Translations under genes and position numbers: made by a program
NCBI RefSeq assembly: GCF_000023285.1
Contig: NC_013162.1
Coordinates: forward strand, 124,001 to 188,000
Direction of reading: 5' to 3'
Length of the DNA: 64,000 bases
Source: Capnocytophaga ochracea DSM 7271
Lineage (GTDB): Bacteria > Bacteroidota > Bacteroidia > Flavobacteriales > Flavobacteriaceae
Notes under the pieces: generated by a model
The model's database searches: none
Seen by the model: the letters and a program-made list of their open reading frames with translations, nothing else
Told to the model about the DNA's origin: nothing
Shown here: piece by piece, positions 7,062 through 62,654 of the stretch
How positions within the stretch are numbered: the first letter of the stretch is position 1
Layout: the number at the start of each line of letters is the position of its first letter

Positions 7062-7203
7062 TGAAAAATGAAGCGTTAAAGATACGAGTCGCACAGGCAG
7101 GTGCGAGCCGCACGGGCAGTCGTAGCACGACAGGCAAATAAAGAAAAGACAAAGGTAACCTCCCCCTACCCCCTCAAAGAGGGGGAACTGTAGCGACGCA
7201 AAG

Positions 7204-7357
7204 ACGAACAAATGACGGTGCGAGCCGCACGGGCAGATAGAGAAAAGACGAACAATGAACGAACAATGAACGAACAATGAACGAACAATGAACGAACAAT
7301 GAACGAACAATGAACGAACAAAAGACGAACAAAAGACGAACAATGAACGAAGAAAGG
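7204..7357 (+). repeat. 11-bp word array, island D (14 words)
   Basis: Fourteen consecutive 11-bp words in perfect register. In order they are ACGAACAAATG, ACGGTGCGAGC, CGCACGGGCAG, ATAGAGAAAAG, six copies of ACGAACAATGA (7248-7313), two of ACGAACAAAAG, one ACGAACAATGA and ACGAAGAAAGG. It lies between an M16 gene and fba, both on the plus strand. Function unknown. Confidence 0.88.
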
Positions 7358-7445: not shown

Positions 7446-7476
7446 TTTGAAGATATATGAGAAAATCGTATCTTTG
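7446..7476 (+). promoter_or_regulatory. Promoter of fba
   Basis: -7 box TATCTTTG at 7469-7476 with TTTG -33 box at 7446-7449 and a 19-base spacer; 56 bases upstream of the fba ATG. Confidence 0.8.
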
Positions 7477-7532
7477 CCGTCAATTATGACATAATGAGTA
7501 ATTCTGAAAACTAAAATTAATTATATTAAAGA

Positions 7533-21054: not shown

Positions 21055-21251
21055 GAACAAAAATTTAAATTACATAGTACGTAGGTAGTAGTAACAATCT
21101 AAAAGTCATATATTTACATATATAAATAAAAACCTATGGGTAGGTGAAAAATTAGAAAATTAGCAAATTAGGGAATTAGAAAATTAGGGAATTAGCAAAT
21201 GGGAAGTGTAGTTAATGGTTAATGGTAAATGGTAAATGGTGAATAGTGAAA

Positions 21252-21383
21252 TTGGGAGAGAGGTATACAAAGCTTATAGAATAATTAAAGAATGAGTGGC
21301 TCTACAGTGGCTCTACAGTGGCTCTACAGTGGCTCTACAGTGGCTCTACAGTGGCTCTACAGTGGCTCTACAGTGGCTCTACA
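21252..21383 (+). repeat. 11-bp word array, island A (12 words)
   Basis: In-register words TTGGGAGAGAG, GTATACAAAGC, TTATAGAATAA and TTAAAGAATGA, then eight identical copies of GTGGCTCTACA (21296-21383). Word order matches islands 53671-53824 (inverted) and 60724-60888. Confidence 0.88.
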
Positions 21384-21516: not shown

Positions 21517-21548
21517 TTTGTGAATTTGCTAATTAGTTCGTACCTTTG
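21517..21548 (+). promoter_or_regulatory. Promoter of alaS
   Basis: TTTG at 21517-21520 and TACCTTTG at 21541-21548, 20-base spacer; 48 bases upstream of the alaS ATG. Confidence 0.8.
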
Positions 21549-21596
21549 CGCCCTGAAAATGTTAATTATTAACTGTCAATCGTTAGTTAAAAATAT

Positions 21597-35823: not shown

Positions 35824-35987
35824 TTGAGTTTTATGTTTTTAGTTATGAATTATCAGTTAAAAAGGGTGCAAAGATAATACTTTTATTTCTATTATTCAAC
35901 AACTACCCATAATCACCTTCTACAAACTCCACTTTTTCTACTATTTTGCAAGCCTTATCCTTTATCATTTCTCCACCTTTTCTTCGT

Positions 35988-36196
35988 TCATTGTTCGTCT
36001 TTTCTTCGTTCATTGTTCGTCTTTTGTTCGTCTTTTGTTTATCTGCCTGTGCGGCTCGCACCGTCTTTTGTTTGTCTTTTGTTTATCTGCCTGCGCGGCT
36101 CGCACCGTCTTTTGTTTGTCTTTTGTTTATCTGCCTGCGCGGCTCGCATCGTCTTTTATTTGTCTTTTCTTCATCATTCGTTCATCACTCTTTCAT
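35988..36196 (-). repeat. 11-bp word array, island E (19 words)
   Basis: Nineteen 11-bp words in unbroken register. On the plus strand they include TCATTGTTCGT, CTTTTGTTCGT and three rounds of the 44-bp phrase CTTTTGTTTAT-CTGCCTGYGCG-GCTCGCAYCGT-CTTTTRTTTGT. They end in diverged CTTTTCTTCAT, CATTCGTTCAT and CACTCTTTCAT. The reverse complements are the words of island 7204-7357. Confidence 0.88.
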
Positions 36197-36375
36197 TTTT
36201 GTGTCGCTACATTCCCCCTCTTTGAGGAAGCCAGCGAAAGCTGGGTATGTGTAAGGGAGAGGTTTTCTTCGTCTTTTGTTTATTTGTCTGTGTGGCTCAC
36301 ACCGTCTTTTATTTGGTTACTCTTTGTTTAGTTGCCTATCGTGCTACGACCTCATATCGTCATCGATTTAGTATT

Positions 36376-53670: not shown

Positions 53671-53824
53671 CTTTTGTTCGTCTTTTGTTCGTTCATTGTT
53701 CGTCTTTTGTTCGTTGTAGACCCACTGTAGACCCACTGTAGACCCACTGTAGAGCCACTGTAGACCCACTCATCGTTCGTTTATCCTATAAGCTTCTTAT
53801 AAGCTTTATATAATCCTCTCCCAA
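53671..53824 (-). repeat. 11-bp word array, island B (14 words, inverted)
   Basis: Read on the minus strand: TTGGGAGAGGA, TTATATAAAGC, TTATAAGAAGC, TTATAGGATAA, ACGAACGATGA, then five GTGGGTCTACA-type words (one GTGGCTCTACA), then four ACGAACAAAAG or ACGAACAATGA words. Every word is 11 bp and in register. The order is the same as in islands A and C. Confidence 0.88.
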
Positions 53825-53916
53825 TTTCTCCATTAACCATTAACCACTAACCATTAATCATCAACCATTAACCTTGCTTCCAAAGTGGATAACAAAGATT
53901 TTTAAACATCTATCTT

Positions 53917-58860: not shown

Positions 58861-60600
58861 ATGACAACAAATTCATATAAAGAAAAACTTTCAGAGGCAA
58901 CACAGCAATACCTAAAACTTACTAAACAATACAACCAAATTAGCTTCCTCCGATTAGCTGAAATGCTACTTATCATTTGGTCAGTATACAAACTTATAAA
59001 AGCTCCATCAGTAGTAATGGGGCTATTTTGTATGCTTACTATTGTGGTTTTCCTTCTTTTGATAGTAAAACACAAGAAAATAAGTGCGTTGCGCAGTATC
59101 GCTCAAACTAAAATACGCCTCAATGAGCAGGAAATTGCATTTTTAGAACAACATACTTTCTTCACCGATAACGGCAAAGATTTTCAAGAAGAAAACCACC
59201 CTTATGCTTACGATTTGGATATTTTAGGTGAACATTCACTCTATCATTATCTTAACCGTACGCATACTTTCTTAGGCAGAAAACTTTTAGCCGAGCGACT
59301 TCTCTCTCCTTCTTCTGAGGACATTATCAACACACAAGAACAGATAAAAGCACTTACTCCCGACCTAAGCTGGCGACAAACCTTTACTGCTTATGCTCAA
59401 CAAATAGATGACAGCAAAGATTTTTACATTAAACTACGCACTTGGGCAGGTAGCACTGTGAAACTATTAAGCAAAACAATGCAATATACTCTCATTGTTC
59501 TACCTATATTCCTCATCATAAGTCTTTTGATAGGATATGGAAACGACAACGAACTACTAAAAAGCGTTGGAAAGTTCTTAATCACTCTAAACTTGCTACT
59601 GTTTTTCTCTTTTATTGGTAAAATGACGAAAGAAAAACTCGGTTTTGAGCGTACTTATACAATGTTATATGCTTTTAAGGAGTGTATTGCACAAGTAGAA
59701 GCGCGTTTCCCTGAGAAAAACAAACAAGCAAGCGCTAAAATAGCTCAACTTTCCCGATTGTTAGACGATTTGGACAACGTGAGTAATATATTAGTCTCTA
59801 TACCCCTAAACCTTTTCTCTTTTTATCACGTACATCGTTATCAGCAACTTTTGCAATGGAAGGCGCAATATGCAAGCTGTATTGAAGAATGGTTAGAGTC
59901 GGTGGGGGAAACGGAAGTGTTGTGCAGTTTTGCTAACTTTAGTTATAACAACCCTGAATTCGTTTATCCTACCCTCAATAATGATTATAAAATAGCTTTT
60001 GAAGCCGTAGGACACCCACTTATCCCTTCTGAACATCGGATTACCAATGATATTACACTGGGAGAGCACGCTTTTGTATTGCTTACGGGCTCTAATATGT
60101 CGGGTAAGAGTACTTTCTTGCGCACTTTGGGAGTTAATATGTTGCTTACCCTTGTTGGGTTACCTGTTTGTGCGCGCAAAGCCAATATACACCCTTTGCG
60201 TTTACGCGTCTCTATGCGTCTTGCTGATTCGCTTAACGACGGCAAATCGTATTTCTTTGCTGAAATCAATCGTATACAGCAGATAATGGAAACCTTAGAG
60301 GACGAACGTTGCTTTGTGCTCTTAGACGAAGTACTACGGGGTACTAATTCAGAAGACAAACAGTACGGCACTATTAAGATTATCGAACGATTGCTTTCCT
60401 TACAAGCTTTGGGCGTGCTGGCTACTCACGATATAGAAGTGTGTAAACTTACTGAACAATATCCTCATCAACTTCAAAATAAATGCTTTGAGTCTGACAT
60501 CACCAATGGAGAACTCACTTTCGACTATAAGTTAAGAGAGGGCGTTTGCCAAAACAAAAATGCTACTTTCTTGATGAAAAAATTGGGAATCATTAGGTAA
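58861..60600 (+). CDS. Membrane-anchored MutS-like ATPase
   Basis: 579-residue protein with a MutS-type C-terminal ATPase: Walker A LLTGSNMSGKSTFLRTLG (about 401-418), Walker B CFVLLDEVLRGTNSEDKQYG (about 486-505) and the signature GVLATHDIEV. It lacks the mismatch-binding domain. The N-terminal half holds TM-like segments (LAEMLLIIWSVYKLI, VVMGLFCMLTIVVFLLLIV, TLIVLPIFLIISLLIGYG and FLITLNLLLFFSFIG). Soluble MutS does not have these; a membrane-associated MutS-related family is common in Bacteroidetes. Start uncertain: ATG 58861 or 58840, within an AATGACAAATTACGAATGAC-type low-complexity stretch. Confidence 0.82.
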   Translation: MTTNSYKEKLSEATQQYLKLTKQYNQISFLRLAEMLLIIWSVYKLIKAPSVVMGLFCMLTIVVFLLLIVKHKKISALRSIAQTKIRLNEQEIAFLEQHTFFTDNGKDFQEENHPYAYDLDILGEHSLYHYLNRTHTFLGRKLLAERLLSPSSEDIINTQEQIKALTPDLSWRQTFTAYAQQIDDSKDFYIKLRTWAGSTVKLLSKTMQYTLIVLPIFLIISLLIGYGNDNELLKSVGKFLITLNLLLFFSFIGKMTKEKLGFERTYTMLYAFKECIAQVEARFPEKNKQASAKIAQLSRLLDDLDNVSNILVSIPLNLFSFYHVHRYQQLLQWKAQYASCIEEWLESVGETEVLCSFANFSYNNPEFVYPTLNNDYKIAFEAVGHPLIPSEHRITNDITLGEHAFVLLTGSNMSGKSTFLRTLGVNMLLTLVGLPVCARKANIHPLRLRVSMRLADSLNDGKSYFFAEINRIQQIMETLEDERCFVLLDEVLRGTNSEDKQYGTIKIIERLLSLQALGVLATHDIEVCKLTEQYPHQLQNKCFESDITNGELTFDYKLREGVCQNKNATFLMKKLGIIR

Positions 60601-60609
60601 TACCGAATT

Positions 60610-60654
60610 AATACCAATAATACCAATAATGCCAATAATGCCAGAAATGCCAAA
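60610..60654 (+). repeat. 9-bp repeat, five units
   Basis: AATACCAAT twice, AATGCCAAT, AATGCCAGA, AATGCCAAA. These are the reverse-complement relatives of 36376-36411. Confidence 0.75.
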
Positions 60655-60723
60655 TAAAGATTAGCAAATTAGCAGATTTGAAAATTAGCAAATAGGAAGT
60701 GTTGTTAATGGTGAATGGTGAAA

Positions 60724-60888
60724 TTGGGAGAGGATTATAGGAAGCTTATAGGATAAACGAACAAAGAGTGGCTCTACAGTGGCTCTACAGTGGCTCTACA
60801 ACGAACAAAAGACGAAGGAAGAACGAACAAAAGACGAACAAAAGACGAAGGAAGAACGAACAAAAGACGAACAATGAACGAAGGAAGA
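60724..60888 (+). repeat. 11-bp word array, island C (15 words)
   Basis: In register: TTGGGAGAGGA, TTATAGGAAGC, TTATAGGATAA, ACGAACAAAGA, three GTGGCTCTACA, ACGAACAAAAG, ACGAAGGAAGA, two ACGAACAAAAG, ACGAAGGAAGA, ACGAACAAAAG, ACGAACAATGA, ACGAAGGAAGA. Unlike a simple tandem repeat, the words alternate while the 11-bp phase never slips. Confidence 0.9.
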
Positions 60889-60986
60889 GTGTAGCTAAGT
60901 TAGTACTAAGTAGAAGAATACTTGAACGTGTAAGGCAAGTTTCTTCTTTTTTTTATGCCTTTAAACTAACATTTTAGGCTTTAAAT

Positions 60987-61017
60987 ATTGTTAGTTGGTA
61001 ATTATTCACTACCTTTG
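60987..61017 (+). promoter_or_regulatory. Promoter of pyrG-yidC
   Basis: ATTG (60987-60990), 19-base spacer, TACCTTTG (61010-61017), only 17 bases before the ATG, giving a very short leader. Confidence 0.72.
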
Positions 61018-61028
61018 CACCAAATTAA

Positions 61029-62654
<1,626 letters not shown>

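Follow-up and report, generated by a model that had tools for sequence, protein, structure and literature searches.

The five intergenic islands of 11-bp words in the window, which is the whole stretch of 64,000 nucleotides of the Capnocytophaga ochracea chromosome (contig NC_013162.1) analysed here, are probably mosaic, period-locked minisatellites of one Capnocytophaga clade, a reading to which we assign a probability of about 0.6. Such arrays are intergenic, occur throughout the C. ochracea genome (2,612,925 bp in a single contig), draw on a common vocabulary and keep an 11-bp register, as the original prediction had proposed. Bacterial tandem repeats are usually described as one copied unit; what is constant here is the unit length, which is kept clade-wide while the words turn over. 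The GC content of the window is 40.4%, and that of the C. ochracea VPI 2845T genome is given as 39.6% in the portion of PMC3035226 used here.

All five islands were found at the predicted coordinates with the predicted 14, 12, 19, 14 and 15 words, except that the main one, island 3, begins one word earlier. It spans 35977..36196 and is read on the minus strand as 20 in-register words, comprising the 19 originally noted and an extra one at 35977-35987 that is visible when the region is printed in 11-mers. Its 44-bp phrase of four words, passing through three rounds, is real: TRF reports it at 36018-36175 with period 44, 3.6 copies and 94% matches, and gives period 11 for all five islands. On the plus strand lie island 1 (7204..7357), with 14 words, seven of which are ACGAACAATGA, and one 22-bp hairpin module, ACGGTGCGAGCCGCACGGGCAG; island 2 (21252..21383), upstream of alaS, with 12 words, eight of which are GTGGCTCTACA; and island 5 (60724..60888), upstream of pyrG, with 15 words. 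Island 4 (53671..53824, minus strand) occupies a gap between divergent ORFs, the shorter of just 106 aa, and its 14 words include, on that strand, TTGGGAGAGGA, TTATA words, ACGAACGATGA, GTGGGTCTACA and ACGAACAAAAG. The window contains seven segments of 11-bp self-similarity, compared with none in total over 40 shuffles in 50-bp blocks.

A coding role for the arrays was considered and rejected, as a period of 11 shifts the reading frame at each word. Because the main word ACGAACAAAAG, read by hand, is open in all six frames, the ORFs that lie over arrays, including a 102-aa ORF across island 3, reveal little in this respect.

The vocabulary had been put at about ten word types, which is too low, since 50 runs of three or more words each contain 461 words of 43 types. 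Successive in-array words, counted with two-word runs included, are separated by 433 steps of 11 bp and three other steps, with 69 ends, and of the 22 interruptions between adjacent runs, 20 are a multiple of 11 bp long. The register, described at first as unbroken, is thus nearly so, but those 20 interruptions are not independent of one another, because several copy one 22-bp module and others are words that the search expression missed. Identical word pairs are more frequent within one array than across arrays, both for the ACGAA type (67% vs 28%) and for the GTGG type (75% vs 43%), and identical neighbouring words number 259, compared with 216 ± 5.5 when words are shuffled within each run. 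This likeness within arrays, together with the excess of identical neighbours, supports the earlier suggestion of a slippage or recombination product. Near-uniform runs of a single word reach 30-34 words at single loci, and the order of GTGG words, ACGAA words, GTGAAGGTAAG, TTAAAGCTAAG and ATAGAGATAA, or of close variants or parts of these, recurs at five loci. The words are locally homogenised, and the steps and interruptions are consistent with whole-unit duplication; most of the seemingly unbroken register arises because expansions are local and proceed by whole units.

The arrays are not confined to the window, as ACGAACAAWRRACGAA occurs 323 times genome-wide and the AGTGGCTCTAC doublet (GTGGCTCTAC doublet), with at most two mismatches, 279 times, and the patterns read backwards occur 0 times in each case. 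In five array or dispersed-element stretches (100 kb, window excluded), the only Rfam families at gathering score were two tRNAs, which agrees with the view that the arrays match no known repeat family. The excess of 11-bp phase likewise extends beyond the window, both in self-match and in segment counts over the sampled species. In 864 kb of C. ochracea, made up of the window and 40 stretches (14 of the first 20 of which contained hits already listed), intergenic self-match is 0.327 at offset 11 vs 0.289 at 10 and 0.290 at 12, and is raised at shorter offsets too (0.308 at 7 and 0.311 at 8). The first 464 kb of this sample hold 56 segments at period 11, six of them mostly in ORFs, and 0, 2 and 0 at periods 10, 12 and 13. 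Across 65 stretches (about 1.28 Mb) that were not selected for an array hit, although some were selected for pyrG and several from C. ochracea contain dispersed-element copies already listed, intergenic tandem segments at periods 7 to 13 number 46, 32, 5, 0, 69, 2 and 0, respectively, and 27, 7, 0, 0, 30, 1 and 0 when C. ochracea is left out. Exact tandem repeats of at least two copies, counted over 1.79 Mb of the clade with genes and hit-chosen stretches included, show the same peak, with 117 at period 11 against 2 at 10, 8 at 12 and 0 at 13 (a shuffle control gave 3 at period 10), and 449 kb of four Capnocytophaga species outside the clade contain one at period 11. Duplication alone does not set the period, because 69 segments at 11 stand against 0, 2 and 0 at 10, 12 and 13; this sharp preference for 11 within the range 10-13 is unexpected.

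The period count over relatives covers 11 Capnocytophaga species and 2.24 Mb. Period-11 intergenic segments are present in C. ochracea (G000), G008, G013, G010, G009, G001 and G018, the last with one segment, which lies in a stretch selected because of a hit already known, and none in its other stretches, and were not found in the sampled stretches of G011, G002, G019 and G005. The count omits G003, G014, G016 and G017, which provided no stretches, and also G004, G006, G007, G012 and G015, several of which are short or masked; the sole period-11 segments in the first four of these are runs of N, and G015 (33 kb) has none. In a PyrG tree, a branch supported at 98/97 unites the seven array-bearing species, with no unlabelled row among them, and the four sampled array-free species fall outside it. 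The vocabulary is species-specific and the period constant: G013 uses ACGAACTATAA and ACGAAGGATAA, G001 uses AGCGAAGGATA, G009 adds TATATTGTTCC-type words, and G008 has several seemingly unrelated words.

A phylum-wide ACGAA family was rejected, as four ACGAA words at period 11 occur in 3 of 394 other Bacteroidota genomes, with 2 for the backward control. Scattered 11-bp mosaics are seen in Chitinophaga, Pedobacter and rumen lineages. When the matching parts are set aside, 282 kb from 38 Bacteroidota loci, which had been selected by one 11-bp match, contain six segments at period 11 and none at 10, 12 or 13, and 66 kb from nine non-Bacteroidota loci contain none at 10, 11 or 13 and one at 12. 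Mosaics with other 11-bp words occur in Pedobacter frigiditerrae (L107, about 6720) and Chitinophaga filiformis (L129, 2442-2670), and in the rumen Bacteroidetes genome RUG14564 (L081, L084 and L088) ACGAACAACAA words form inverted pairs at several places which, judged by eye, could make long hairpins.

Gene context was scored for the 36 arrays whose two neighbours could both be read, other arrays being left out and any ORF that overlaps an array being disregarded. Of these, 15 lie in divergent, 19 in tandem and 2 in convergent gaps, compared with 54, 124 and 20, respectively, of 198 general gaps longer than 150 bp. The idea that the arrays mark boundaries between transcription units gains no support from these numbers for convergent gaps. 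Within tandem gaps, 12 arrays are co-oriented and 7 opposed. The sequence TTG-N17-23-TANNTTTG, which we take to be the promoter motif of Bacteroidota, is found between the array and the co-oriented downstream gene for 20 of 27 arrays and in no case inside the array, at distances from the array of 43 to 932 bp; as background, intergenic DNA holds 0.67 such motifs per kb and strand, and since gaps before genes should contain a promoter, the 20 cases show where the arrays lie and not an enrichment. In the window, promoter-like sites (ends approximate) are located on the plus strand at 7447..7480 between island 1 and the fructose-bisphosphate aldolase gene, at 21518..21552 between island 2 and alaS, and at 60988..61020 between island 5 and pyrG, and one on the minus strand lies between island 3 and a ferredoxin gene.

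Upstream of pyrG, by eye, other Capnocytophaga species have a similar promoter-like site. The start motif was located at 15 of 20 loci, G003 being readable for 219 bp only, and an array like island 5 was not seen in the 14 other species readable there. By eye, this place holds a 9-bp mosaic in G009 and a short series of other 11-bp words in G013, and the region of the closest species (G010 and G018; L214 and L215) looks unlike that of C. ochracea (window 60600-61035). Island 5 may lie at a synteny break, judging by eye.

In the minisatellite reading, the 11-bp unit would duplicate in tandem by whole units, through slipped-strand or unequal recombination, with single words and multi-word phrases being copied locally and words changing by substitution, and composite pieces would also spread among intergenic regions. 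The register would be kept because gains and losses come as whole units, and the arrays would persist mainly where they are least harmful, upstream of core promoters. Such a process takes in the local homogenisation, the whole-unit steps, the recurring composite order, the restriction to a clade with species-specific words and the usual position upstream of promoter-like sites, all described above; its motor is presumably slippage or unequal recombination, and the arrays themselves are probably near-neutral. The model requires copy-number variation between strains, and the arrays would be candidate strain-typing loci if variable. Most of what was surprising about the islands at the outset stems from whole-unit duplication in a long-lived intergenic repeat kit that includes the 7-, 8- and 9-bp mosaics as well. 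The preference for 11 among 10-13 and a chromosomal split, by contrast, do not follow from whole-unit duplication. Two observations stand against the minisatellite model in particular: the restriction of ACGAA arrays to one part of the chromosome, which it does not predict, and the uniform core of a dispersed element, which looks like constraint or recent spread.

The shorter mosaics lie directly beside the islands. An 8-bp mosaic (AAATTAGC-type) followed by a 7-bp one (AATGGTA-type) occupies 21148..21250 on the plus strand just before island 2; mosaics of 9 bp (TAATACCAA/AATGCCAAA), 8 bp (ATTAGCAA) and 7 bp (AATGGTG) occupy 60598..60722 on the plus strand just before island 5; and a 7-bp mosaic lies at 53830..53873 on the minus strand beside island 4. 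TRF reports 0% indels for periods 7 and 8 and 0-5% for period 9. Keeping a register therefore does not need the helix, since the period-7 and period-8 mosaics beside the islands keep theirs too.

This last point bears on a different and, in our view, improbable reading, namely that the arrays are a helically phased platform, in which period 11 fits the supercoiled turn and a putative protein, for which gyrase, HU or a Bacteroidota nucleoid protein would be candidates, wraps or polymerises along one face. The helix repeat is 10.5 bp per turn, and in negatively supercoiled DNA the turn is near 11 bp (10.5/(1-0.05), or about 11.05 bp). The original claim that each word presents the same face of the DNA fails at 10.5 bp per turn, at which 19 words drift by about 0.9 turn, and holds only with DNA underwound to about 11 bp per turn. 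The preference for 11 over 10, 12 and 13 in several word types and species favours a platform, as does the E. coli gyrase motif, for which the part of PMC6379681 used here gives a 10.75-bp GC periodicity in two 47-bp arms; sections of PMC12393610 discuss this gyrase-site periodicity, and sections of PMC3940949 treat 10-11-bp DNA periodicity. However, the 7-, 8- and 9-bp mosaics are common too, which weakens a reading from the helix only, and convergent gaps, where gyrase demand would be expected, hold arrays at a frequency not clearly different from that of gaps in general (2/36 and 20/198). Furthermore, a platform role is not general, because arrays are absent from four sampled Capnocytophaga species.

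The dispersed element provides evidence on both sides of this reading. It is about 217 bp long with an 11-phased core and has 130 copies in C. ochracea (for example, at about 490,490 in L065 and about 776,184 in L067), none of them in the window; an 84-base query found three copies in G008 and none in 18 other Capnocytophaga. Its consensus can be read in 11-mers, about a dozen in a row, and 12 of 13 begin with TA, TG or TT; among ten periods tried, its TA-step signal is highest at 11. Both features are in line with a platform, but the maxima of its WW and GC signals lie at 9.5-10 bp, which is not. In 38 aligned copies, identity is at or above about 90% at most positions between -26 and +38, and the outer parts of the element have diverged. 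The way the search was built makes positions 0 to 27 alike, but not the remaining ones.

The element and the arrays are distributed differently along the chromosome. Among the matches listed (to 2.16 Mb), ACGAACAAWRRACGAA has no plus-strand occurrence at 355,347-1,620,310, and the longer ACGAACAA triple on the other strand has none at 343,562-2,001,855 among the matches listed (to 2.54 Mb). The 34 ACGAA clusters among the matches listed have a mean position of 2.38 Mb (Rayleigh p 7e-7), and the dispersed element has one of 1.15 Mb (Rayleigh p 4e-6), with 86 of its 130 copies in 48% of the chromosome. A looser expression recovers five short ACGAA runs (2-3 words) inside 0.36-1.62 Mb, and ACGAA runs there are shorter (p 0.014). 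GTGG arrays have no clear split, and array length has no significant rank correlation with distance from the origin (p 0.88 and 0.13). Fisher values for the split are descriptive only, because the limits of the two halves were set from the data themselves and hits guided the choice of many stretches. The split itself, in which ACGAA arrays avoid 0.36-1.62 Mb, where the dispersed element is densest, is unexpected.

From gene-strand bias in 28 stretches, including the window and L061, the origin maps to 1.04 Mb (p 0.029 by permutation); GC skew agrees (p 0.21), and third-position skew gives 0.86-0.90 Mb. The two 16S loci detected, at 722 kb (minus) and 1698 kb (plus), one of them fragmented, are directed away from a site somewhere between 0.72 and 1.70 Mb, in agreement with an origin at 1.04 Mb; four rRNA operons are reported for C. 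ochracea in the section of PMC3035226 consulted. The dnaA gene, at 2,323,532, lies near the inferred terminus and roughly half a chromosome away from the origin placed here, and parB is at 1.867 Mb. The position of dnaA speaks against an origin at 1.04 Mb, but dnaA was rejected as an origin marker, being contradicted by the 16S directions and the gene-strand bias. In a matS-like manner, the ACGAA arrays would be confined to the terminus half, with the terminus placed by a weak strand bias and two 16S loci. One might go further and propose a period code, in which words of one supercoiled helical turn drift freely between oral Capnocytophaga species, ACGAA arrays mark the terminus half and the dispersed element the origin half, and both are platforms for a putative wrapping or polymerising nucleoid protein, although we consider this extended scheme quite improbable.

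Equally doubtful is a role as regulatory variable-number repeats, whose copy number upstream of promoters would tune the neighbouring gene, 11-bp steps nearly keeping the helical face. The 20 of 27 co-oriented arrays with a promoter-like site between array and gene would fit such a role, as would the placement of 15 of 36 arrays in divergent and 2 in convergent gaps, compared with 54 and 20 of 198. On the other hand, the neighbours in the window (aldolase, alaS, pyrG and ferredoxin genes) are mixed housekeeping genes and no contingency set, orientation in tandem gaps is not clearly biased, the distance to promoter-like sites is variable, and island 5 is not seen ahead of pyrG in the other species read.

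The least probable of these readings, and one that we regard as very unlikely, is staggered-cut duplication, in which an enzyme cutting with an 11-nt stagger, followed by fill-in and rejoining, would turn any word into an exact 11-bp doublet, the 7- and 8-bp families coming from other enzymes. The peak of exact repeats at 11 (117, against 2 at 10 and 0 at 13), with several word types sharing one period, would be expected from it, and 20 of the 117 are two-copy doublets that fall outside the three main word families by the filter used. However, the number of independent word families behind period 11 depends on the linkage cut-off, being 16 when words are linked at two mismatches and 2 at three, where chance chaining is to be expected. 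Moreover, at least some of those 20 doublets are variants of the main families, and ordinary slippage explains the long uniform runs. Phage cargo was rejected, as the exact GTGG doublet and the exact dispersed-element core have no match in viral contigs; three viral contigs have the ACGAACAAAAG pattern, by eye within apparent coding sequence.

Preferring the minisatellite reading, we can compare the arrays with known repeat systems. A search of the open-licence literature, with subscription papers outside its scope, gave no description of these arrays among the matches listed. The 11-mers are contiguous and without spacers, unlike the repeats of CRISPR. Minisatellites with variant repeats and MIRU-VNTR loci have variant units, local homogenisation and higher-order phrases, and the arrays resemble them in all three respects but differ in that their vocabulary is common to many loci and that one unit length holds across a clade. 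BIMEs are intergenic, dispersed mosaics assembled from module kits. The arrays are likewise intergenic, dispersed and mosaic with a common module kit, as far as the description of BIME/REP in parts of PMC6379681 goes, but BIMEs are built of palindromes, whereas the 11-bp words are for the most part non-palindromic, despite the hairpin module in islands 1 and 3; folds of islands 1, 3, 4 and 5 do not reveal palindromic units in general, those of islands 1 and 3 leaning somewhat the opposite way. LSSRs (units of 5-11 nt; Mrazek and co-workers) are, in the passages used of PMC4679880 and PMC4060949, likewise tandem, longer than chance, scattered and, in some genomes, intergenic. The arrays are in keeping with a definition of LSSRs as units of 1-11 nt in runs longer than expected, with runs of up to 34 units and 0 segments in 40 shuffles, but they are not copies of one unit, since several words are combined in one register in every one of the five islands, and they prefer 11 over 10, 12 and 13 clade-wide. 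TAACTGA heptamers of Beggiatoaceae, Cyanobacteria and five Bacteroidetes also form many intergenic direct-repeat sets per genome, but consist, according to the relevant part of PMC4679880, of one fixed 7-bp word which, in the main genome described, in most cases precedes a start codon by no more than several nucleotides. The Capnocytophaga arrays, in contrast, are of mixed 11-bp words usually upstream of promoter-like sites, and their period of 11 differs from the 7-bp unit of TAACTGA and STRR sequences; the 7-bp mosaics nearby are separate from them.

The constant unit length raises the question of whether an 11-bp duplication length is mutational in these cells or one helical turn is selected. 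The former would point to an unusual duplication mechanism, the latter to a novel chromosome-organising system in Bacteroidota, and a binding or chromosome-domain role for the arrays is possible.

Finally, some of the islands are associated with hairpins. When pieces of 150 nt were folded as DNA, 199 of 200 shuffles folded at least as well as island 5, and island 4 had a z of 0.31, compared with -4.71 for island 1 and -2.58 for island 3; the latter two contain the hairpin module, and the ACGAACAATGA words of island 1 also pair mutually. Hairpin modules of the form N5-AGC-N5' followed by NGGCDG occur at 7215-7236 and 36043-36064 in the window and elsewhere in the genome, with stems that co-vary (GTGCG/CGCAC, GTGTG/CACAC and GTCGT/ACGAC). 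Pairing with at most one mismatch is found at 49 of 122 sites, two of which are likely due to chance, and at 0 with a control loop CGA, for which the total was not counted. In addition, a palindromic module with a CCCCCTCAAAGAGGGGG-type core, judged by eye, adjoins two islands (7160-7192 and 36208-36225), and pieces similar to it are seen by eye near copies of the dispersed element.
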